A DNA stretch of 64,000 bases from Synechococcus sp. SynAce01 (lineage in GTDB: Bacteria; Cyanobacteriota; Cyanobacteriia; PCC-6307; Cyanobiaceae): contig NZ_CP018091.1 of assembly GCF_001885215.1 (NCBI RefSeq), positions 992,001 through 1,056,000 on the forward strand. The letters are read 5' to 3'. The position numbers and the translations under genes were made by a program. Positions 10,311 to 35,283 of this stretch are shown piece by piece; position 1 is the stretch's first letter, and each line of letters begins with the position of its first letter. The notes under the pieces were generated by a model. The model was not told where the DNA came from and ran no database searches. It saw only the letters and a list, made by a program, of their open reading frames with translations.

Positions 10311-11337
10311 GGCTGATACGCAGTAAGCAAAAAGGCTCAATGGCCAACTCGATTAGGTAGCAAACTCCGCACACCTCAGGAGTCGTTCCGGCCGTGCTTG
10401 ACAGCTGCAGATGGCATGAACCACACGCTCGGTCATTGCCGCCAGATTGAACCGCCGATTGAAGCGGTAGCTGAAGGCGCCCAAGTAGCGATCAGCGTAC
10501 TTTTCGAAGCGAAGGGCATGGAAGCTGCCGCTGAAGCTGGTTTTCAAGTTGCTGAGCACCGTGTTAATCCAACGGAATTCTGGTAATTCATTGGGATGAC
10601 GACCCTTTACGACCACAGGATGATGGAAGCAACCGACTTCTGCAACGGCGCGAAAGCAAGCCAGCCCATCGGAGATCACTTCACAGCCTATCGCCAGTGA
10701 ATCTTGGGCCCAATCAGCAATAGCGGCAAAAGAGAACGTGGGCACGGTGGCAAGTTTTATATACCGGGGGTGGCCCGCCTCATCGACAGAGACGGCTGCC
10801 ACGACCGGCACCTTGTTCTCCGATCCACGACCAGGCTTGCCACCACAGCGTTCTCCGCCAAGGTAGGCATCATCCACCTGCACCCTTCCTCTGAGGACAT
10901 AGGCGCCATCACGTTCTTTCATTGCCTGCATGATCTTGTTCTGAAGCAACCATGCCGTTCGGTAGTTCACACCGAGATGACGCCTCAGAGCTAGTGAGGA
11001 GATTCCTGTCTTGGCTTGGCCGACGAGGTAGAAGGCAAGGAACCAGGTGGTCAGAGGTAACTTTGTTGCCTCCAAGATGGTACCGGCCGTGAGGGTGGCT
11101 TGATGACGACAGCTCCGGCACTGATAGCGCTTGTGGCGCCTGCCAATGATGAGCCCGTACTCCTTGCCCTCACAACGTGGGCAACGGAAACCATCAGGCC
11201 AGCGCGCCTGTTCCAGGGCAACTTCACATTTTTGCTCGGTTCCGTAGAGCTCAATAAACTGGGGCAGCGACAGGCTGGCCTGGAACTGGATCCGATTCAT
11301 AGCCATGGCACTGACGACTGGTATATGCGTACCAGCC
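10311..11337 (-). mobile_element. IS1595-type insertion sequence
   Basis: A complete transposase gene is bounded by 12-base terminal inverted repeats with one mismatch: GGCTGATACGCA at 10311-10322 and its partner TGCGTACCAGCC at 11326-11337. The total length of 1027 bases is usual for single-gene IS1595 elements. The flanking eight bases (CGGGTAAC and TAGATCCC) do not match, so no target duplication is visible; the ends may have been altered after insertion. Confidence 0.75.
10353..11306 (-). CDS. IS1595 family (ISXO2-like) transposase
   Basis: The 317-residue product begins with a zinc ribbon (CPRC at about 44-47, CRSC at about 63-66) and continues with an ISXO2-like DDE domain: VDDAYLGGE, VISDGL and the WINTVLSNLK segment. 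This is the intact architecture of IS1595 transposases, which cut and paste the element. The frame is uninterrupted, so the enzyme may be active. ATG codons at 11306 and 11300 are both usable starts. The zinc ribbon and catalytic motifs make the call firm even though no target duplication was found. Confidence 0.92.
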   Translation of the reverse strand: MAMNRIQFQASLSLPQFIELYGTEQKCEVALEQARWPDGFRCPRCEGKEYGLIIGRRHKRYQCRSCRHQATLTAGTILEATKLPLTTWFLAFYLVGQAKTGISSLALRRHLGVNYRTAWLLQNKIMQAMKERDGAYVLRGRVQVDDAYLGGERCGGKPGRGSENKVPVVAAVSVDEAGHPRYIKLATVPTFSFAAIADWAQDSLAIGCEVISDGLACFRAVAEVGCFHHPVVVKGRHPNELPEFRWINTVLSNLKTSFSGSFHALRFEKYADRYLGAFSYRFNRRFNLAAMTERVVHAICSCQARPERLLRCAEFAT

Positions 11338-13201: not shown

Positions 13202-13384
13202 TCAGTTGATCGTGGCATGTGCGTCGTCTTTCATGTCTTCAACAGCATGTTGAACACTGGCGCGGGTTTGCTTGGCTTTGCCAGCAAGCTCATCTTCTTC
13301 TCTACCGGTTACCTTACCGAAGGTTTCCTGTGCCTTGCCTTCAAGGTCTTTGGCCGTAGCTTCAACCCTTTCACCTAATCCCAT
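13202..13384 (-). CDS. CsbD family stress protein, copy 1
   Basis: The 60-residue protein is a full CsbD domain: MGLGERVEATAKDLEGKAQE, FGKVTG, DELAGKAKQ. CsbD-like proteins are small, highly charged, largely helical and typically induced by general stress; their molecular role is unknown. The ATG at 13384 gives the MGLG start shared by all the short copies here and has AAAGGAG seven bases upstream. It is the first of six family members within 13 kb. The promoter region at 13408-13510 matches three other copies. The sequence closely resembles copies at 23587 and 26021, so these are recent paralogues. Confidence 0.9.
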   Translation of the reverse strand: MGLGERVEATAKDLEGKAQETFGKVTGREEDELAGKAKQTRASVQHAVEDMKDDAHATIN

Positions 13385-13407
13385 GATTGTCTCCTTTGTA
13401 ATGGTCA

Positions 13408-13510
13408 ACATCCAAGCAAGATGGATGTATGCAGTAACCATAGGCCATGCAAAGGGCTACAACTCACCAAATACCTTTGAACTTCCTTGAGTTCAGTTTG
13501 ATTAAATCTG
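13408..13510 (-). promoter_or_regulatory. Shared csbD promoter layout with 5' hairpin, copy 1
   Basis: Read on the minus strand: CAGATTT (13510-13504), 12 bases, CTCAAGGAAG (13491-13482), 39 bases, -10 hexamer TATGGT (13442-13437), 8 bases, then a 7-7-7 hairpin ACATCCA...TGGATGT (13428-13408). The hairpin falls at the predicted first bases of the RNA. Three other csbD genes have the same layout and spacing. Confidence 0.75.
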
Positions 13511-14510: not shown

Positions 14511-14696
14511 CTATCGGCTAGCAAAGGATTGCGTATCGCAAGCCACCTGATCAGTATTGTGCTCGCCGCCAGCTTCAGCTTGCTTGGCTTTGCCTGCTAA
14601 TTCACTCTGTTCATTTCCAATAACCTTGCCGAGCTGTTCCTGGATCTTGCCTTCAATATCCTTGGCAGTGGCCGCCACTTTCTGAGTCAAACCCAT
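14511..14696 (-). CDS. CsbD family stress protein, copy 2
   Basis: The 61-residue protein carries MGLTQKVAATAKDIEGKIQE, LGKVIGNEQ and ELAGKAKQAEAGGEH, a complete CsbD domain, with a diverged tail ending in QSFASR. It is the most distant of the short copies. An ATG three bases upstream (14699) is an alternative start. The same promoter layout as in the other short copies is present at 14716-14818, but with mismatches in each element. The gene is followed by the PfkB-like gene after a 255-base gap. Confidence 0.88.
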   Translation of the reverse strand: MGLTQKVAATAKDIEGKIQEQLGKVIGNEQSELAGKAKQAEAGGEHNTDQVACDTQSFASR

Positions 14697-14715
14697 CATA
14701 ACCTCGATTGTTTGC

Positions 14716-14818
14716 GCATCCGCAAAAGTTGGATGCATGCGCTCAAGATAAAACAGGGCACAAGGAGGTCGCCACCGTTAATCCATCATCATCCTTGAGT
14801 CCTTATGGATTAATTCTG
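14716..14818 (-). promoter_or_regulatory. Shared csbD promoter layout with 5' hairpin, copy 2
   Basis: On the minus strand: CAGAATT (14818-14812), 12 bases, CTCAAGGATG (14799-14790), 39 bases, TATCTT (14750-14745), 8-9 bases, then a GCATCC/GGATGC stem (14736-14716) with six paired bases. Every spacing agrees with copies 1 and 3 although one base in each box differs. Confidence 0.6.
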
Positions 14819-23586: not shown

Positions 23587-23748
23587 TTAGCCTTTCGCAT
23601 CCTCAACTGCATGCTCCCCTTGGGCTTGAGCTTGTTTCGCTTTGCCAGCTAACTGGTTTTGCTCACTATCAGTAGCTTTGCCAAATGCTTCTTGAACTTT
23701 GCCTTCAATGTCTTTTGCTGTGGCTTGAGCCTTGTCACCTAAACCCAT
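23587..23748 (-). CDS. CsbD family stress protein, module A short copy
   Basis: A 53-residue CsbD domain: MGLGDKAQATAKDIEGKVQE, FGKATDSEQ, QLAGKAKQAQAQGEHAVEDAKG. It differs from the copy at 26021-26182 at only about a dozen positions and has the same length, so the two are recent duplicates. The ATG at 23748 has a GGAG seven to eight bases upstream. The shared promoter and hairpin layout is complete at 23771-23874. It is a highly charged helical protein expected in the cytoplasm under stress. Confidence 0.9.
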   Translation of the reverse strand: MGLGDKAQATAKDIEGKVQEAFGKATDSEQNQLAGKAKQAQAQGEHAVEDAKG

Positions 23749-23770
23749 GATCAACTCCGCGATTGTGAAT

Positions 23771-23874
23771 CGCATCCATGTGGAATGGATGCGTACAATC
23801 AATGTATGACAGGGAGGGCAGAACAGATCAGCCATAGGCTTTGAACTTCCTTGAGCTAACTTGCTTAAAATCTG
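23771..23874 (-). promoter_or_regulatory. Shared csbD promoter layout with 5' hairpin, copy 3
   Basis: On the minus strand: CAGATTT (23874-23868), 12 bases, CTCAAGGAAG (23855-23846), 39 bases, TACATT (23806-23801), 7 bases, then a perfect 8-7-8 hairpin CGCATCCA...TGGATGCG (23793-23771). The hairpin would be the very 5' end of the RNA, 22 bases before the ATG. Confidence 0.78.
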
Positions 23875-26020: not shown

Positions 26021-26182
26021 TCAGTCTTTTGCATCCTCGATAGCGTGTTCACCTTTGGCTTGGGCTTGCTTCGCCTTGCCAGCTAGTTTGTTCTGCTCAT
26101 CATCGGTCACTTTGCCGAGGGTTTCCTGGGCCTTCCCTTCAATGTCCTTGGCAGTTGCTTGAGCCTTGTTTCCTAATCCCAT
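26021..26182 (-). CDS. CsbD family stress protein, module B short copy
   Basis: A 53-residue CsbD domain: MGLGNKAQATAKDIEGKAQE, LGKVTDDEQ, KLAGKAKQAQAKGEHAIEDAKD. The nearest relative in the window is the product of 23587-23748. The ATG at 26182 has CGGAG upstream. The promoter and hairpin layout at 26205-26309 is complete. It is the last of the csbD series; the phytochrome cluster starts 382 bases beyond on the opposite strand. Confidence 0.9.
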   Translation of the reverse strand: MGLGNKAQATAKDIEGKAQETLGKVTDDEQNKLAGKAKQAQAKGEHAIEDAKD

Positions 26183-26204
26183 GGTTGTCTCCGTATGGTG
26201 TGAA

Positions 26205-26309
26205 TCACATCCAGAAGGTTTGGATGTGTGCAATCACCATATGCCAGGAACAAGCCCATTGAACAACTTCAACCGTTCATCTTCCTTGAGCTCTCCTGTT
26301 ATAAATCTG
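26205..26309 (-). promoter_or_regulatory. Shared csbD promoter layout with 5' hairpin, copy 4
   Basis: On the minus strand: CAGATTT near 26303-26309, CTCAAGGAAG near 26281-26290, about 39 bases, TATGGT (26240-26235), 7 bases, then a perfect 8-7-8 hairpin CACATCCA...TGGATGTG (26227-26205), 22 bases before the ATG. The two distal boxes keep the same 22-base offset as in the other copies. Confidence 0.75.
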
Positions 26310-26563: not shown

Positions 26564-28810
26564 ATGGATCTGTCCACCTGTGATCGCGAACCAATTCACA
26601 TTCCGGGGCTGATTCAGCCCCATGGCGCTCTTTTGGTGCTGCAGGAGCCAGGCTTGATCATTGTCCAAGTCAGTGGGAACACACTTGAAATACTTGGCCA
26701 TCGCCCAAAGGAACTATTAAGACAGCCGTTATCCATTTTGTTGGCTCCCCAGCAGATTGCTGCTATTCAGCAATGCCTTAGCGAAGATACGGAAAATGTG
26801 AATCCATTGGATATTGCTATTTCCTACAGAGGCAGCTTGCTGATGTTCGATGGCAATATCCACCGCCAAGATGCATTGGTACTTTTAGAATTAGAACCTC
26901 AAGATCAAAAGCAACGAAATGACTATTCCGAACTGCATCAGGGAGTCAAAAGCACGATAACAAAGATACAGAAATCCTCTAGCTTGCTGAAGATGTGCGA
27001 GCTGGTCGTTAAAGAAGTCAAAAAGATCACTGGATTCGATCGCATTATGGTCTACCAGTTTGATGCCGATGGTGCTGGAGAAGTCATCGCAGAAGAACGA
27101 ACAGAAGGCCTCACGCCTTATCTGGGCCTACGCTACCCCGCAAGCGATATTCCAGTTCAGGCAAAACAACTTTATACACTCAACTGGCTACGCTTAATTC
27201 CGGACTCTAGCTATACACCAGTCGCCCTGGTTCCTGAGCGCAACCCCGTTGATGAGGAGCCCACAGATTTGAGTTTCGCGCTGCTCCGTAGTGTCTCTCC
27301 ATTGCACTTGGAATATCTCAACAACATGGGAGTCGCAGCGTCAATGTCGATTTCCTTGATCCAAGATCAAAAACTATGGGGTTTGATTGCCTGTCACCAT
27401 TCAAGGCCACGTCATGTGCCTTCTAATCTGCGAATCATGTGCGAGTTTATTGGGCAGGTGATGTCACTTGACCTCAGCAAGCGTGTAGACAATCAAGATT
27501 TGTCCTATAAGCTGAGCATGAAGTCTCTGCAAAGCAAGCTGGTCGAGTCGCTATCTCAATCCAAGCAGATTATCAAAGGATCCATCCAACTAGACGAAAG
27601 CTTGCTTGAACTCGTCAGTGCAACAGGAGCCATTTTCTGTACGGCAGATCATAGTATTGGTGTTGGTCAAACGCCACCAGCAAGTGAATGGCCTGCCCTG
27701 CGCGATTGGATTAAAACGCAGATGCAGGACAACATGTTTCAAAGCCGATCGCTCTCTCGCCTTTATCCCGCTGCAACATCGTTTAAGGCCGTTGCCAGTG
27801 GGGTGTTAGCTCTGGAAATCTCTCAATTCCATCAGGATTTCGTCATCTGGTTCCGCCCAGAGGTGATTGAAACGGTGACGTGGGCTGGCAACCCCCATAA
27901 GCCTGTCGAGGTAGCCAGCAACGGGATCGTCACCTTATCGCCGCGCAAATCATTTCAACAGTGGAAGGAAACACTGCAAGGTTGCGCCTTGCCATGGAAA
28001 CCGTGTGAACTAAAAGTTGTTGCCGAATTACGCAGCTTGATCGTTAGCAAGATTCTCAAACAGGCGGCAGACCTGGCAAATGTAAATCTAGAACTTGAGC
28101 GAAGCAATATTGAGCTCGATTCGTTTGCATACGTTGCATCTCATGACCTCAAAGAGCCATTACGCGGCATTCACAATTACTCTAATTTTTTGATTGAAGA
28201 TTATGCGGAAGTGCTTGACACTGCTGGTGTAGACAAATTAGCTACCCTCGTGCGCCTCACTCAACGAATGGAAGATCTGATCAATTCGCTTTTACATTAT
28301 TCACAGCTGGGGCGCATTGAACTTTCCAGGCAACCCACAGACCTGGCTGAGTTGGTGGAACAAACGATTGAAGTTCTAAGAATTAGCCAACCGCAAAGCT
28401 CAATCGATTTTCGGATGTCAGGCTCCATGCCAATGGTGGATTGCGATCGCACACAAATCAGCGAGGTATTGACCAACCTATTAACCAATGCAATCAAGTA
28501 CAACGACAAAGCTGAGAAGTGGGTTGAAATCGGCTGTGCCCAATCAGGCAATGGAGATTCTGACGGCCTCTCAGGTTGCACCTTTTTTGTCCGTGACAAC
28601 GGCATTGGCATCCCGCCTCAACATTTGGAGCGTGTGTTTCAGATTTTCAAACGTTTGCATACCCAAGACCAATATGGAGGAGGGACTGGGGCTGGCCTGA
28701 CGATCGTTCGCAAGATCGTCCATCAACATGGAGGCAAGATTTGGGTGGAATCGAGCTTCGGTGAAGGCAGCACATTCTTCTTTACGCTGGCATCAGGAGA
28801 GCAATCATGA
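26564..28810 (+). CDS. Bacteriophytochrome histidine kinase
   Basis: The 748-residue protein has PAS-GAF-PHY-kinase order. Cys6 in [12 protein letters not shown] is the biliverdin-binding cysteine of bacteriophytochromes. The GAF domain has [10 protein letters not shown] (residues 191-200) and the pyrrole-contacting His248 in SPLHLEYL, where plant-type Cph1 has Cys before that His and this protein has Leu. So it should bind biliverdin, not phycocyanobilin. The PHY tongue has PRKSF (460-464). A HisKA domain has [15 protein letters not shown] (His527), followed by N, G1 and G2 boxes. It should sense red/far-red light. The next gene, overlapping by four bases, is its likely response regulator. 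Confidence 0.93.
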
Positions 28811-29274
28811 ATCAGTCATCATTGGCCAGAATCCATAATCGCTCGCTCATGTTGGTCGTTGAGGATAGCAATGAAGATTTCGAAGCCTTCCAACGCTATG
28901 CTCGTCGATCGCCGTTGAGAATTCCTATTTATCGCTGCGTCGATGGTGATCATGCACTGTCATTTCTCTATCGAACCGGTCGCTATGTTGACCCCAAGCA
29001 AGCACCACGTCCGAACTTGATTTTACTGGATCTTAATTTACCGGGAACGGACGGACGAGAAGTCTTGCAAAAAGTTAAGCGAGATGAAAATCTAAAAACG
29101 ATTCCAGTCGTGATTTTGACGACATCAAGCAACCCCAAGGACATTGAAGCCTGTTATAGATGGGGCGCTAATAGCTATATGGTTAAGCCGATGGATTCCG
29201 ATCGGCTAAAGCACGGGGTTCAATCCTTAATCAACTACTGGTTCAACACGACGTTACTACCCACCGACAATTGA
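28807..29274 (+). CDS. Rcp1-like single-domain response regulator
   Basis: The 155-residue protein is one receiver domain: [13 protein letters not shown] at the acidic pocket, [17 protein letters not shown] with the phospho-acceptor Asp, VILTTSS and MVKPM with the conserved Lys. The pattern [18 protein letters not shown] and the spacing match Rcp1-type regulators that pair with cyanobacterial phytochromes. The start overlaps the phytochrome stop (ATGA), so translation is coupled. There is no output domain, so it should pass the phosphate on or act by binding a partner, possibly the following hybrid kinase. Confidence 0.9.
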
Positions 29275-29285
29275 GAGCTGCCCTA

Positions 29286-32200
29286 ATGAATTCCCAACGG
29301 TGCCGCACCATTTTGATCGTGGACGATAGCCCAGAAGATCGCGAGATGTATCGACGCTACATGGTGCGCGATCGTGACCATGACTATACGTTCATCGAAA
29401 CAAGTTTTGGTGAAGAAGGGTTGAATCTGTGGCGGCAGCACCATCCCGATGCTGTGCTACTTGATTATCGATTGCCCGACCAAGACGGATTGGAATTTCT
29501 CGCTGCGCTGCAAAAAGAACTTCCCCTTCCAATCGTGATGATGACCGCCGTTGGCAGCGAGGAGATTGCCGTTAAAGCGATTAAATCAGGCGCCCAAGAC
29601 TATCTAGTTAAGGAGCAGATTACACCAGAGAATCTGAAGCACACTCTCGATGCAACAATTAAGACTGTGCAGCTAGAAGTACAACTGCAGAATCGCATCG
29701 ATCGAGAAAGTATCATTGCCAAGTTATCAGAAAAAGTATTCCAAACTTTGGATCTAGATATGGTCCTGCAGACCATCGTCAAAGAAGTGCGCAACTTCCT
29801 TAAGGCTGATCGGGTCGTTGTGTTTCAAGCCAACTCGATTGGAAAGGAAGCGGTTGCAGCAGAAGCGGTGGGCAGCGAATGGAAATCGTTTCTTTCAGAG
29901 CCTATTAATGATCCGTCTTTTGTCGAAAACTATATCGACAACTCTCAGCGCGAACGCAATCCGCTGGCAACAGACGGCCACAATGCCAACATTTCACCCG
30001 GCCATGTTGAGCTGCTGAAGAAATATCAAGTGCAGTCTAATCTGGTCGTTCCCATTTTGAACGATGGCCAGCTTTGGGGAGGGTTAATTGCTCATCACTG
30101 TGCTGCTCCCCGCCAGTGGCAAGCGCTAGAGATTGATTTGCTTCACCAATTGTCCACGCAAGTTAGCGTTGCCATCAGGCAAGCAGAGCTGTATCAGGAA
30201 GCCCAGCGCGAACTTGTTGAACGGAGTCGCACAGAGGAGGTCTTACGAAACCAGGACGACAAACTCCGATTGGTGCTCGAAGCTGCCGGGATGACAACCT
30301 GGGACTGGGACCTTCTGACGAACTCTATTACCTGGTCCAGCAACATGGGCAGCCTGTTTGGATTGGGGACGGAGGAATCCAAAGGAACCTACGATGACTT
30401 CGTGGCTTGCCTACACCCCGATGATCGTGAACGCGTCTTAGGAGCCCTCCAAGACGCTCTAACACAAGAGAAAGATTACAACATTGATTTCCGAGTTCTA
30501 CATCCGAACCAAGGGATTCGCTGGGCGTCAAGCCAAGCCACAGTCTTTACTGACCAGAATGGCAAGCCTATTCGCATGTCAGGTTGCACCCTGGACATTA
30601 CTGAACGCAAACAGTCTGAGTGCAGATTGCAAGAGAGTGAAACTCAGGTGCGTCGTATTCTCGATGGGTTGTTTAGCTTTGTCGGCTTGCTAGCCTTGGA
30701 TGGAACAATGCTTGAGGTTAATCGAACTGCCTTAGAAGCGGCTTCTCTGGTACCGGCAGATGTTGTAGGCAAGTCATTTCCTGATACCTATTGGTGGGCT
30801 TACGATTCAGAGGTTCAGGCCCAACTCTCTAAGGACATACGACAAGCAGCTTCAGGAGAAACAGTTCGCTACGACGTGCAGATCCGGCTCAAGGAAGATC
30901 ACCTTATTACCATTGATTTTTCCTTGGCACCACTGTACAATCAGGCAGGGGATGTTGAATTCTTGATTCCCTCTGGCATCGATATCAGCGAACGTGTTCA
31001 GGCGCAGGCGGCATTAAAGCGAAGCCAAGACTTCAATAAACGGATCATCGAAAGCAGCAACGACTGCATCAAGGTTCTTGATCTTGATGCCAGATTGCTC
31101 TACATGAATGCGGCGAGCCGGGATTTCTTGAAGAGCTGCAAGCTGACAGTTGTCCCTCAAACAAACTGGTTGAGCCTGTGGAATGGTGATTATCAGCAAG
31201 CAGCAAAAAAAGCCTTTACTACAGCGAAATCCGGTGAAGTTGGCAGGTTTCAGGGGAACTATCAGCCTGCCAACGGCCTGCCCATTTGGCGGGATGTCGT
31301 GGTTACGCCAATCTTTGATTCAAGCGGACAGGTGATCCAGATTTTAACGACAACACGGGATATCACACAGCAACGATTGATGGAAGAACAACTACGGCAA
31401 AAGAATGCCATTCTGGACGTAGTCAATGAGTCTTCGCATACACTCATTTTCCTTAAAGATCGTCAAGGCAAAATGCTTTATGCCAACTCAGCCGTCCTTC
31501 AGACCCTTGGCAAAACGGAATCTGAGGTCATCGGACATTACGACTACGAGCTTTTCCCGAATGCCCATGAAGCAAAAAAGATCATGGATAATGACCAGCG
31601 AGTCATGGCGTCAAGGCAGGTTGAAAACGTTCAGGAGTCCATCGATGACTCTCAAGTTTTTCTATCCACCAAAGCGCCTTACTTTGATGAAAATGGAGAC
31701 GTCATTGGGCTCGTTGGCATAGGCCACGATATCACTGATCGGATCAAACTAGAACACGAACGCGAGGACATCCTCCAGCAGAAACAATATTCCCTGGAAG
31801 AAGCGCAACGCGTGAACCGCATTAAAGACGAATTCCTGGCTGTACTCTCCCATGAATTGCGCTCGCCTCTTGGCCCAATTCTGGGCTGGACACAATTGCT
31901 GCAAACCCGCAAACTTGATGACACCAAAACCACAGCAGCGTTAGCAACGATCGAACGGAATGCCAAGGCCCAATGTCGCTTGATTGATGATCTGTTGGAT
32001 ATGGCCTGCGTGTTGCAAGGCAAGTTATCTCTAAAAATTGCTCCTGTCAGTTTAAAGGTGGTGATTGAGTCGGCAATCGAAACTGTGCAAACTGCTGCGA
32101 TCGCCAAGTCTGTTCAGATTCGCTCCAAGCTCTCTGAAGTTCCAACACTATCTGGGGATTCCGTTCGCCTTCAGCAGGTCATCTGGAACTTGCTGACAAA

Positions 32201-32942
32201 CGCGGTCAAATTCACGCCCAGCGGCGGCCAGATTGACATTCGGCTTGAGAACGTTGACAACCAGGCAGAGATCACCATCACAGATACAGGCAAAGGCATC
32301 AGTCCGGAATTCTTGCCTTATATCTTTGAGTCATTTTGCCAGGAAGACACCACAGTAACTCGGAAATATGGCGGCTTAGGGCTGGGTATGGCGATCGTCT
32401 ATCAGCTGGTAGAAGCGCACGGTGGCCGTGTGACTGCTGAGAGCCTTGGCGAAGGGAAAGGAGCTTGTTTCACTGTGAAGCTTCCCCTGCTGAAAGCCCA
32501 CATCAAGGAGCAGCAACCGAAACCTTCGCAAAAGCGAACCCTTGATCTCACCGGCATTCGCCTGCTGATCATTGACGACGATCCAGACAGTCGCGACCTA
32601 CTTGACTTCATCTTGGATCAGGCCGGAGCAGAAAGTATTTCAGTTTCTACTGCTGCTGAATTCTTCCCCGCTCTGGAATCATTTCAACCTGATGTTGTGG
32701 TTAGTGATATCGGAATGCCAGAGATTGATGGCTATACGTTGCTCAAGAAAGTGCGATCCCTATCCCCTGAGCAGGGAGGGCAGGTTCCGATGATCGCCCT
32801 AACGGCTTACGCTGGCGAAGTTGACCGGCAACGTGCCATCACGGCAGGCTTTGAGAAACACATCACCAAGCCGATTGAGCCTGATCAATTGGTGGTAACG
32901 ATCGCTGATTTGCTGAGCAAACAATCCATCGCCAAGAACTGA
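29286..32942 (+). CDS. Hybrid histidine kinase (REC-GAF-PAS-kinase-REC)
   Basis: A 1218-residue protein. Order: receiver (LIVDDSPEDRE, LLDYRLPDQDG), GAF domain (about 130-310), several PAS/PAC repeats ending in SGCTLDITERK, SGIDISERV, TTRDITQQR and GIGHDITDR, a HisKA domain (FLAVLSHELRSPLGPILGW), an ATPase domain (NLLTNAVKFTPSGGQ, GLGLGMAI), and a C-terminal receiver (LLIIDDDPDSRD, VVSDIGMPEIDG). The GAF sequence GHVELLKKYQVQSNLVVPIL reads like a cyanobacteriochrome GAF in which the chromophore-binding Cys before His is Gly, so it probably does not bind bilin covalently. The ATG at 29286 is preferred over TTG 29271. It follows the Rcp1-like gene by 11 bases. Confidence 0.9.
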   Translation: MNSQRCRTILIVDDSPEDREMYRRYMVRDRDHDYTFIETSFGEEGLNLWRQHHPDAVLLDYRLPDQDGLEFLAALQKELPLPIVMMTAVGSEEIAVKAIKSGAQDYLVKEQITPENLKHTLDATIKTVQLEVQLQNRIDRESIIAKLSEKVFQTLDLDMVLQTIVKEVRNFLKADRVVVFQANSIGKEAVAAEAVGSEWKSFLSEPINDPSFVENYIDNSQRERNPLATDGHNANISPGHVELLKKYQVQSNLVVPILNDGQLWGGLIAHHCAAPRQWQALEIDLLHQLSTQVSVAIRQAELYQEAQRELVERSRTEEVLRNQDDKLRLVLEAAGMTTWDWDLLTNSITWSSNMGSLFGLGTEESKGTYDDFVACLHPDDRERVLGALQDALTQEKDYNIDFRVLHPNQGIRWASSQATVFTDQNGKPIRMSGCTLDITERKQSECRLQESETQVRRILDGLFSFVGLLALDGTMLEVNRTALEAASLVPADVVGKSFPDTYWWAYDSEVQAQLSKDIRQAASGETVRYDVQIRLKEDHLITIDFSLAPLYNQAGDVEFLIPSGIDISERVQAQAALKRSQDFNKRIIESSNDCIKVLDLDARLLYMNAASRDFLKSCKLTVVPQTNWLSLWNGDYQQAAKKAFTTAKSGEVGRFQGNYQPANGLPIWRDVVVTPIFDSSGQVIQILTTTRDITQQRLMEEQLRQKNAILDVVNESSHTLIFLKDRQGKMLYANSAVLQTLGKTESEVIGHYDYELFPNAHEAKKIMDNDQRVMASRQVENVQESIDDSQVFLSTKAPYFDENGDVIGLVGIGHDITDRIKLEHEREDILQQKQYSLEEAQRVNRIKDEFLAVLSHELRSPLGPILGWTQLLQTRKLDDTKTTAALATIERNAKAQCRLIDDLLDMACVLQGKLSLKIAPVSLKVVIESAIETVQTAAIAKSVQIRSKLSEVPTLSGDSVRLQQVIWNLLTNAVKFTPSGGQIDIRLENVDNQAEITITDTGKGISPEFLPYIFESFCQEDTTVTRKYGGLGLGMAIVYQLVEAHGGRVTAESLGEGKGACFTVKLPLLKAHIKEQQPKPSQKRTLDLTGIRLLIIDDDPDSRDLLDFILDQAGAESISVSTAAEFFPALESFQPDVVVSDIGMPEIDGYTLLKKVRSLSPEQGGQVPMIALTAYAGEVDRQRAITAGFEKHITKPIEPDQLVVTIADLLSKQSIAKN

Positions 32943-33191
32943 ACTGCAACAACCGAACGCCACCAGCTGATCCAATGCCTGTAGCCGCCATGGCTGCGGA
33001 GATGGCGCGTGGATCGGCCGGTATGCGCAACAGCTCAGCACTAGCATCAAAAATCCAGGCCTTGAAACCATTGATCCGCCAGAAGCCATCCATTGGAGGC
33101 CGTCATCGGTATGCACAATGGGCGGCCACCAACTCCGTGTTGCAGCCCCCCAAACCCCCATCCCACCCCCTCCAACAAGAGGGCTTCGAAC

Positions 33192-33467
33192 ATGACATCT
33201 GCAACAGCAAAAACGGCCATCAACACAGCCATCTCCAGCGTTTTGGCCCTTGGCCTGGTGGCCGTCACCAGCAGTGAAGCCCTCGCTGGCAAAGCCGGCA
33301 TGGAAAAGTGCGCCGGCATCGCCAAGGCGGGCCTGAATGATTGCGGCACCAGCAAGCACAGCTGCGCAGGCAAGGCCACCGTGTCGGGTGATCCCGAAGA
33401 GTGGGTGTTCGTGCCCACTGGTACCTGCAACAAGATCGTTGGAGGGAAGCTCAAGATGGCGAACTGA
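33192..33467 (+). CDS. bufA: Bufferin precursor BufA1 (DUF2282)
   Basis: The 91-residue precursor has a signal peptide (residues 1-31, ending SEALAG) and a core with four cysteines in [24 protein letters not shown] and [11 protein letters not shown]. This is the DUF2282/BufA1 pattern. In characterised bufferins the core cysteines are turned into thiooxazole groups by a multinuclear iron oxidase, and the exported peptide binds copper. AGAGGG stands eight bases before the ATG at 33192, which supports this start over upstream frames. The next two genes encode the modifying pair BufB and BufC. The usual fourth gene (DoxX-like bufD) is absent. Confidence 0.9.
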
Positions 33468-33512
33468 ACAGCCACCCATCAAGGACCAGCCCAAGCCGTT
33501 GACACATCCACC

Positions 33513-34334
33513 ATGAATCTCCAAGGGGTGGGCCTCGGCTTGCGGTCTGTGCACTATTCCCACATCCTCAGGGAAACGCCGCCCGTGCCTTGGTTTGAGG
33601 CGCTCTCGGACAACTATCTGGGTGGCGGGCTACCGCTCCATCATCTGACCCTGATCCGCCAGACCTATCCAATCACCCTGCATGGGGTTGGGCTTTCGCT
33701 TGGTTCAGCAGATCCACTCAACTGGGACTATCTGCATCGGTTGAAAGCCCTGGCCACCCGCATCGAACCGGTGTATGTGTCCGACCATCTGGCCTGGGTT
33801 TCGAGCGGCGGCCACTATTTCAACGATCTGGCTCCGCTGCCCTACAACGAGCCTGTGTTGAACTACGTGGCTGATCGAATCCAACAGGTGCAGGAGTTTC
33901 TGGGAAGGCGAATCCTGATCGAAAACCTTTCGCCCTACCTGCAGTTTTCAGGCAACGACTACAGCGAATGGCAGTTTCTCGCCGCACTGGCTCAGCAGGC
34001 CGATTGCGATCTGTTACTTGATATCAACAACGTTTTTGTGAACGCCAGCAATCACGGCTTTAACCCGATGGAGTATCTCGCTGCCATGCCAGTCGATCGC
34101 GTCAAAGAGATCCACTTGGCTGGCTACGAGCAGCAAGGTTCCTTTCTTTTCGATACCCACGGAAGGCCGGTGCAATCCGGTGTTTGGTCGCTGTATCAAG
34201 AAGCCCTAGAGCGCTTTGGAGCGGTTCCGACCCTGATCGAATGGGACACCAATATTCCCTGCTTCGATGACCTCCAAAACGAAGCCCGCAAAGCCGAGAC
34301 GTATCGATGCCAACTCCAGCCCCAAGCGAACTGA
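33513..34334 (+). CDS. bufB: BufB (DUF692, MNIO family RiPP oxidase)
   Basis: The 273-residue protein belongs to the multinuclear non-haem iron oxidases (DUF692). It has VGLGLRSVHYSHIL, FEALSDNYLG, LHGVGLSLGS, VSDHLAW, LIENLSPYL, LLLDINNVFVNA, EIHLAGYE and LIEWDTN, which supply the His, Asp and Glu iron ligands of a TIM barrel. It is expected to oxidise cysteines of the BufA core to thiooxazoles. It lies 45 bases after bufA and overlaps bufC by 28 bases. Confidence 0.92.
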   Translation: MNLQGVGLGLRSVHYSHILRETPPVPWFEALSDNYLGGGLPLHHLTLIRQTYPITLHGVGLSLGSADPLNWDYLHRLKALATRIEPVYVSDHLAWVSSGGHYFNDLAPLPYNEPVLNYVADRIQQVQEFLGRRILIENLSPYLQFSGNDYSEWQFLAALAQQADCDLLLDINNVFVNASNHGFNPMEYLAAMPVDRVKEIHLAGYEQQGSFLFDTHGRPVQSGVWSLYQEALERFGAVPTLIEWDTNIPCFDDLQNEARKAETYRCQLQPQAN

Positions 34335-35116
34335 CCTCTCTGCAGACCTTGTTCTATGCGGCGATCAGCCAAGCAGCCGATCCTGCCAGCCTTGCGGCTC
34401 TGGAGCCGATGCTGCATTGCAGCGGCAGCCTGAGCGTCAAAGAGGGGTTCGCCGCCTACCGGGGCAGCGTGAAGGGCAAGCTGATCCGTTGCCTCGAAGA
34501 CATTTATCCCGTTTGTCAACGGCTGGTGGGTGATAATTTCTTCGGAGGACTTACCGAGCAGTTCATCATGACCTATGCATCAGTTTCGCCGGATCTGGGC
34601 GATTACGGCGCTGAGCTGCCGGCCTTCATCAAGACGTTCACTCCAGCTGAAGCCCTGCCCTATCTGGCCGATGTGGCCCAGCTGGAGTGGCACTGGCACC
34701 GGGTGTTCAACGCACCAGACGAGAAAGCCTTCGACATGCAGGCGCTTTCCCAAGTGGCAGCTGAGCAATGGGAAAGCCTGGTGTTCCAACTGCCTCGATC
34801 CAGTGTTTTGCTGCGATCGATCTATCCGGTCCACCGGATCTGGGAGGCCAATCAAGATGGCGTCACTGATTCAGTGCCGGTTGACCTGGACCAGGGAGGC
34901 GCGAATCTTTTCATCTGGAGAGATGGCGTTGAAACGCGGATTGAGATGCCGGGAGATGGGGAATGGAGGTTGCTGGAGGGCTTTGCCGCCAGAACAACAT
35001 TTGGCCAGCTCTGCGCAGACCTGGATCAAGGCCTGGCCTCTGTGGATGCATCCGTGTTGCTGCCGGTCTTCGTCAAGCGTGGTTGGGTGAAATCGTTTGT
35101 ATTGGGTGAGGGATAG
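34307..35116 (+). CDS. bufC: BufC (DUF2063, partner of BufB)
   Basis: The 269-residue protein has the DUF2063/HvfC-BufC layout: an N-terminal helical domain with GFAAYRGSVKGKLIRCLEDIYPVCQRLVG, then YGAELPAFI and ALPYLADVAQLEWHWHRVF, and a C-terminal substrate-binding part (LFIWRDGVETR). These partners bind the precursor and are needed by MNIO enzymes. Overlap with bufB shows a single transcript. The gene ends about 95 bases before the tRNA on the opposite strand. Confidence 0.9.
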   Translation: MPTPAPSELTSLQTLFYAAISQAADPASLAALEPMLHCSGSLSVKEGFAAYRGSVKGKLIRCLEDIYPVCQRLVGDNFFGGLTEQFIMTYASVSPDLGDYGAELPAFIKTFTPAEALPYLADVAQLEWHWHRVFNAPDEKAFDMQALSQVAAEQWESLVFQLPRSSVLLRSIYPVHRIWEANQDGVTDSVPVDLDQGGANLFIWRDGVETRIEMPGDGEWRLLEGFAARTTFGQLCADLDQGLASVDASVLLPVFVKRGWVKSFVLGEG

Positions 35117-35211
35117 AAGCTGTCAGTTGTCGTTGTCCCCTAACCGTCCATGGCCACACCGGCTTCTCGGGCTTGAGCTGAAACTTCTTGTACTGTTGCG
35201 GTTGGGGGGAA

Positions 35212-35283
<72 letters not shown>

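Follow-up and report, generated by a model that had tools for sequence, protein, structure and literature searches.

The window analyzed here, a stretch of 64,000 nucleotides, is part of the closed 2.75-Mb chromosome of Synechococcus sp. SynAce01 (G000:C1:992001-1056000). The first-pass annotation of this DNA claimed that a bufABC operon spans positions 33192 to 35116 of the window, and the open reading frames (ORFs), the protein families and the bufB/bufC overlap were all borne out by our analyses. The locus comprises the following features, in window coordinates.

33088-33111, plus strand: putative ECF sigma factor promoter, ATCCATTGG-N10-CGGTA, loose pattern ATCCrnTsG-N10-yGGTA
33177-33183, plus strand: Shine-Dalgarno-like motif AAGAGGG, located 8 nt upstream of the bufA start codon ATG, seen in the sequence
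33192-33467, plus strand: bufA, 91-residue predicted bufferin-1 precursor with four cysteines; PF10048 (DUF2282), E = 1.6e-23
33513-34334, plus strand: bufB, 273-residue predicted MNIO (DUF692) bufferin maturase; PF05114 (MbnB/TglH/ChrH), E = 1.1e-104
34307-35116, plus strand: bufC, 269-residue DUF2063 partner, PME type 1; PF09836, E = 2.5e-17
35212-35283, minus strand: tRNA-Val(tac), outside the operon; similarity with same-genus genomes begins at its 3′ end

The first two genes are separated by 45 nt, and the last two share 28 nt. The start of bufA is backed by the AAGAGGG motif and by its conservation in a second copy of the operon (copy 2, see below), which has GGAGG at the equivalent place. 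All three proteins scored above the Pfam cut-offs, with 82.8 bits against a cut-off of 22.4 for BufA and 63.4 against 27.2 for BufC. The assignment of BufB to the DUF692 MNIO proteins was confirmed by its PF05114 match and by its score above the cut-off of the NCBIfam model MNIO_BufB (NF050167; 363.2 versus 310 bits). BufB scored below the cut-off of the HvfB-type model PRK05409, and it matched PDB entry 3bww (E = 6e-42). The PF09836 match similarly agrees with the proposal that BufC is the DUF2063 partner, a protein that in bufferin-1 clusters combines DUF2063 with an RRE. The NCBIfam HvfC model matched BufC weakly, under its cut-off (34.7 bits), and no sequence match was found between BufC and PDB chains. 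As for BufA, none of the NCBIfam bufferin models was reached at cut-off, and the family match is to Pfam DUF2282 only.

The four cysteines of BufA had been reported at the outset. They lie in EKC, NDC, HSC and GTC motifs that are conserved in an alignment with the cyanobacterial and gammaproteobacterial operons. The alignment also revealed a signal-like N-terminal hydrophobic stretch that ends in EALA/GKAG, with an AxA motif as a putative signal-cleavage site, and that lines up across the relatives. The MNIO motifs of BufB, including LDINN and D214-T-H216, are intact and conserved with 3bww and the relatives. Mapping by motif rather than by structure, we found that LDINN and D214/H216 correspond to N175, D242 and H244 of HvfB, residues that are essential for activity (PMC13419390). 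In characterized Buf1, the two central cysteines are modified and the two outer ones form a disulfide bond (PMC12452194). Homology, the four cysteines and the conserved active-site motifs thus back the proposal that this cyanobacterium has a bufferin-1 pathway.

The window operon is of the bufferin-1 type and complete in its gene content, with no DoxX (bufD) gene beside it. The absence of bufD had been noted before, and indeed the genome has just two DoxX genes, both at a distance of 1.6 Mb. DoxX (BufD) genes are common in bufferin-1 clusters, although not obligatory. No DoxX-like ORF was found beside the operon of an Oleispira metagenome-assembled genome (MAG) either, the nearest relative outside cyanobacteria, and the absence of bufD is therefore unremarkable.

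The same chromosome carries a second complete bufABC operon at C1:956.2-958.2 kb (L007 8224-10220), 69 kb away and near a valS-like gene. The proteins of the two copies share 80% (BufA), 82% (BufB) and 71% (BufC) identity, and DNA similarity is limited to window positions 33088 to 35106, beginning exactly with the promoter element and ending with bufC. Between the two bufB genes, the differences amount to 47% at fourfold sites and to just 8.5% at second codon positions, indicating that both copies have long been under purifying selection. From these sequence comparisons, the copies arose by an old duplication and both are constrained. Some kilobases downstream of copy 2, ORFs for a CobW-like GTPase and an IS3-like transposase were recognized by eye.

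No sigma-70-like promoter was found near bufA. We found that the leaders of all six Cyanobiaceae buf operons have in common the element ATCCrnTsG-N10-yGGTA, a loose pattern drawn by eye and from buf leaders only. The window site is located 80 nt before bufA and is the sole match in the window. Among the six buf elements it has diverged most, with two mismatches from the strict consensus, and transcription of the window copy may therefore be weak and weaker than that of copy 2. The 2.75-Mb genome contains exactly four exact matches to the loose pattern, two of them at the buf operons and two at the first two sites below; the third has one mismatch.

C1:395917: element site of a thioredoxin/DsbD-like operon, exact loose match
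C1:1154288: element site of an ECF sigma/RskA_C anti-sigma operon, exact loose match
C1:1144637: element site of a glycosyltransferase operon, one mismatch

The strict form of the pattern occurs at 33 sites in 201 Cyanobiaceae genomes, compared with none for the reversed control pattern. Excluding the buf sites, 22 of 30 are upstream of sigma/anti-sigma (12), anti-sigma (2), DM13 (6), thioredoxin (1) or glycosyltransferase (1) genes. Outside Cyanobiaceae, the buf-carrying genome G728 has neither the element nor a sigma ortholog. At two loci (L058 and L059), the element is upstream of an anti-sigma-like gene, with no sigma gene in between. In the same-genus genomes G003 (L039) and G002 (L040), a DM13-DUF4079 operon is divergent from the ECF sigma operon, and each has its own element.

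The candidate sigma operon of SynAce01, near G000:C1:1153-1154 kb, encodes a protein with Sigma70_r2 and r4_2 domains and an RskA_C anti-sigma factor, and the two genes overlap by 4 nt. The sigma gene codes for regions 2 and 4 only and adjoins the membrane anti-sigma gene. The element is present with zero to two mismatches in 27 of 28 such sigma operons (genomes or copies), including that of SynAce01, compared with approximately 4.8 mismatches for shuffled sequences, and its distance to the gene is usually similar among them. Twelve operons have an exact element and 15 have one or two mismatches; the latter represent the fairer test, because the exact ones were mostly found via the pattern itself. 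Among genomes, element sites were detected in 24 of 42 with a sigma ortholog and in 3 of 159 without it (Fisher p = 1e-16). Counting against the involvement of this sigma factor, the sigma operon of G056, a genome with an intact buf operon, has no good match (4 mismatches).

As the element is shared with the sigma operon and tracks the sigma factor across genomes, bufABC is most likely part of an envelope-stress ECF regulon. Control of bufABC by this sigma factor, and its use of the element, would be in line with characterized homologues. The thioredoxin, DsbD-like and DM13 targets suggest an envelope thiol, redox or metal signal. We lean toward the view that Cyanobiaceae have a previously undescribed envelope thiol/metal-stress regulon, in which an ECF sigma factor that regulates its own operon and is paired with an anti-sigma factor of the RskA type would use the promoter ATCCGATCG-N10-CGGTA. 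Its proposed members are the sigma, DM13-DUF4079, thioredoxin-DsbD-like and glycosyltransferase operons, and a bufferin operon would have been recruited to it in a few lineages, providing picocyanobacteria with an inducible copper-buffering RiPP.

The distribution of DUF2282 is sparse, with matches in 6 of 400 Cyanobiaceae genomes. The match in G283 (E = 3.6e-4) was rejected as spurious, as there is no four-Cys frame there, which brings the true count to 5 of 400. DUF2282 is absent from all three other genomes of the same genus, and across the phylum it was found in 2 of 386 genomes, those of SynAce01 and of G728, a member of another family. The G728 bufABC operon (L074, G728:C346) is on a 5-kb contig of 40% GC, a possible contaminant. 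Cyanobium sp. Aljojuca 7A6 and Cruz-8D1 are among the Cyanobiaceae carriers. The Cruz-8D1 operon (L017 9354-11296) is decayed, with a BufA devoid of Cys1 and of the signal-cleavage region and a truncated BufC, and it has retained the promoter element. In G138, the buf operon (L015 8464-14058) is found among ORFs that resemble, by eye, hydrogenase maturation genes.

We built a BufB tree with 23 sequences. The six Cyanobiaceae proteins form one clade (support, 100/99), within which the two SynAce01 copies are sisters (99/98). Oleispira, Coxiellaceae, another gammaproteobacterium and G728 are neighbors with weaker support. A single origin of all cyanobacterial bufB genes including that of G728 was neither supported nor rejected (p-AU 0.13). 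The phylogeny proposed in the first-pass annotation as a check thus gave a mixed outcome, with BufB falling among gammaproteobacterial sequences while the Cyanobiaceae proteins remain together. The closest non-cyanobacterial BufB is that of the Oleispira sp. NORP219 MAG, a gammaproteobacterium, with 61% identity. The plasmid homologues are all less than 60% identical, and no BufB match was obtained in phage and viral collections.

The operon was described initially as lying between an accessory region and a tRNA gene. This is indeed its position, with a low-GC flank to the left (12 to 33 kb; GC of 0.48 to 0.55 versus 0.65 to 0.68) and tRNA-Val to the right. DNA similarity with G002 and G003 starts at positions 35196 and 35211, respectively, at the tRNA-Val 3′ end. 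To the left of the tRNA, no match to the window DNA or proteins was found in the 12 kb compared for G002 or the 1.8 kb compared for G003. The tRNA-Val 3′ end is not repeated elsewhere in the window, and no integrase was detected among the flank proteins scanned. The synteny break and the low-GC flank fit an island edge. Directly upstream of bufABC, the low-GC DNA (26564-32942) codes, in a row, for a phytochrome histidine kinase, a response regulator and another histidine kinase, a large PAS/GAF hybrid. Four small CsbD-like ORFs were seen by eye in the low-GC region (13202-13441, 14511-14738, 23587-23835 and 26021-26233), and an IS1595-type transposase is located near its left edge (10353-11306).

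Altogether, we consider it likely that bufABC makes a bufferin-1 RiPP that buffers copper and that it is transcribed from an ECF-type promoter served by the sigma factor. BufA would be made with an N-terminal signal sequence, and the precursor would be held by BufC. Before export, BufB, a predicted multinuclear nonheme iron oxidase, would convert the two central cysteines to thiooxazoles, and a disulfide bond between Cys1 and Cys4 would form outside. The product would then buffer excess copper in the periplasm or in the thylakoid lumen. The thiooxazoles, the export and the binding of copper are predicted by analogy with characterized homologues. Transcription would start from the promoter at 33088-33111 and depend on the ECF sigma factor with its RskA-type anti-sigma factor, both encoded in trans. 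The same sigma factor would also drive its own operon, the thioredoxin/DsbD-like operon and the second bufABC copy.

Several other explanations were considered. The first-pass annotation saw the setting of the operon as in keeping with transfer. The place of BufB among gammaproteobacterial sequences and the synteny break at the tRNA-Val 3′ end lend this partial support, but the operon shows signs of long residence. A recent transfer from a proteobacterium at the tRNA-Val site would account for the low-GC flank, the break and the gammaproteobacterial origin of the closest non-cyanobacterial BufB. Nevertheless, we regard it as very improbable, as the tree disfavors it, with a single Cyanobiaceae clade in which the SynAce01 copies are sisters, the tRNA end has no repeat in the window, and phage and viral collections have no homologue. 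Import from Pseudomonadota is plausible, but the single clade implies that it is old. This clade, the existence of a second copy that is not at this tRNA, and the promoter element of a Cyanobiaceae sigma regulon all argue that bufABC has long been resident. The data are thus better explained by long residence of bufABC in Cyanobiaceae together with a variable site than by recent import. Alternatively, copy 2 might do the work, and the window copy might be superfluous and in decay. The window element is further from the consensus than that of copy 2, and the Cyanobium Cruz-8D1 operon shows that such decay occurs. However, all three genes in the window are intact, no conserved cysteine or MNIO motif is missing, and the divergence pattern of bufB speaks for long purifying selection, making this explanation unlikely.

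As the shared element was found by conservation alone, it could be not an ECF sigma promoter but the operator of a DNA-binding regulator. Yet it is bipartite with a fixed spacing, directional and close upstream of genes, and it lies ahead of the ECF sigma/anti-sigma operon itself in 27 of the 28 examined and goes with the sigma factor across genomes. Autoregulated ECF promoters usually show this combination of features, and we see little room for an operator. A more serious possibility, although still the less probable one, is that a bufferin-like RiPP is made but that its task concerns another metal or thiol/oxidative stress and not copper buffering. The candidates for coregulation are thioredoxin, DsbD-like and DM13-DUF4079 genes and include no copper exporters, merT and merP follow a related operon on a Rhodanobacter plasmid, and roles beyond copper were proposed by the authors of the bufferin landscape paper (PMC12452194). 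In contrast, the DUF2282 bufferins characterized so far chelate copper and aid growth in copper excess (PMC12452194). We therefore retain copper buffering as the preferred function.

Copper is toxic to picocyanobacteria and yet needed for plastocyanin, and a periplasmic or lumenal copper buffer would therefore bear directly on photosynthesis. That it protects thylakoid metalloproteins is a guess. The main texts of the open papers that we searched do not describe cyanobacterial bufferins. With the shared promoter, candidate targets of a cyanobacterial ECF sigma factor can be listed and tested, and a prediction can be made as to when the peptide is produced. According to a 2009 review (PMC2758279), no targets were then known for SigG-type sigma factors, of which the SynAce01 sigma factor may be one.

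Like the bufferin-1 clusters of Pseudomonadota, e.g., that of Caulobacter vibrioides, the SynAce01 operon has the A-B-C gene order, a four-Cys DUF2282 precursor with a signal-like N terminus, an MNIO BufB and a DUF2063 partner. Bufferin clusters elsewhere can hold ECF sigma and NrsF genes (PMC12452194). In contrast, SynAce01 has no adjacent DoxX, sigma or NrsF genes; its candidate sigma factor is of another type, is paired with an anti-sigma factor of the RskA kind and is encoded at a distant locus, and its genome has two diverged copies of the operon. The gigPABT-rpoQ system of Cupriavidus metallidurans similarly ties a bufferin operon to an ECF sigma factor, the gig operon being divergent from rpoQ (PMC10304878), and the gig operons of C. 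metallidurans and Legionella respond to gold and copper (PMC10304878, PMC5413113). The sigma gene of Cupriavidus adjoins the gig operon, which has a fourth gene, gigT, whereas in SynAce01 the sigma factor is encoded in trans and linked by the promoter element only. The operon of the Oleispira sp. NORP219 MAG (L022) resembles that of SynAce01 in its bufABC genes without an adjoining DoxX-like ORF and in its BufB, but it belongs to a gammaproteobacterium. The SigK-RskA system of Mycobacterium tuberculosis (ECF19) also combines an ECF sigma factor with an RskA_C anti-sigma factor, although its target genes are different; the SynAce01 sigma factor may or may not be of the ECF19 group. The -35 element of SigK, CCATCC, is similar to the ATCC of the Cyanobiaceae element. 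The operon itself thus belongs to the known bufferin-1 kind, and its link to a sigma regulon is the new part.
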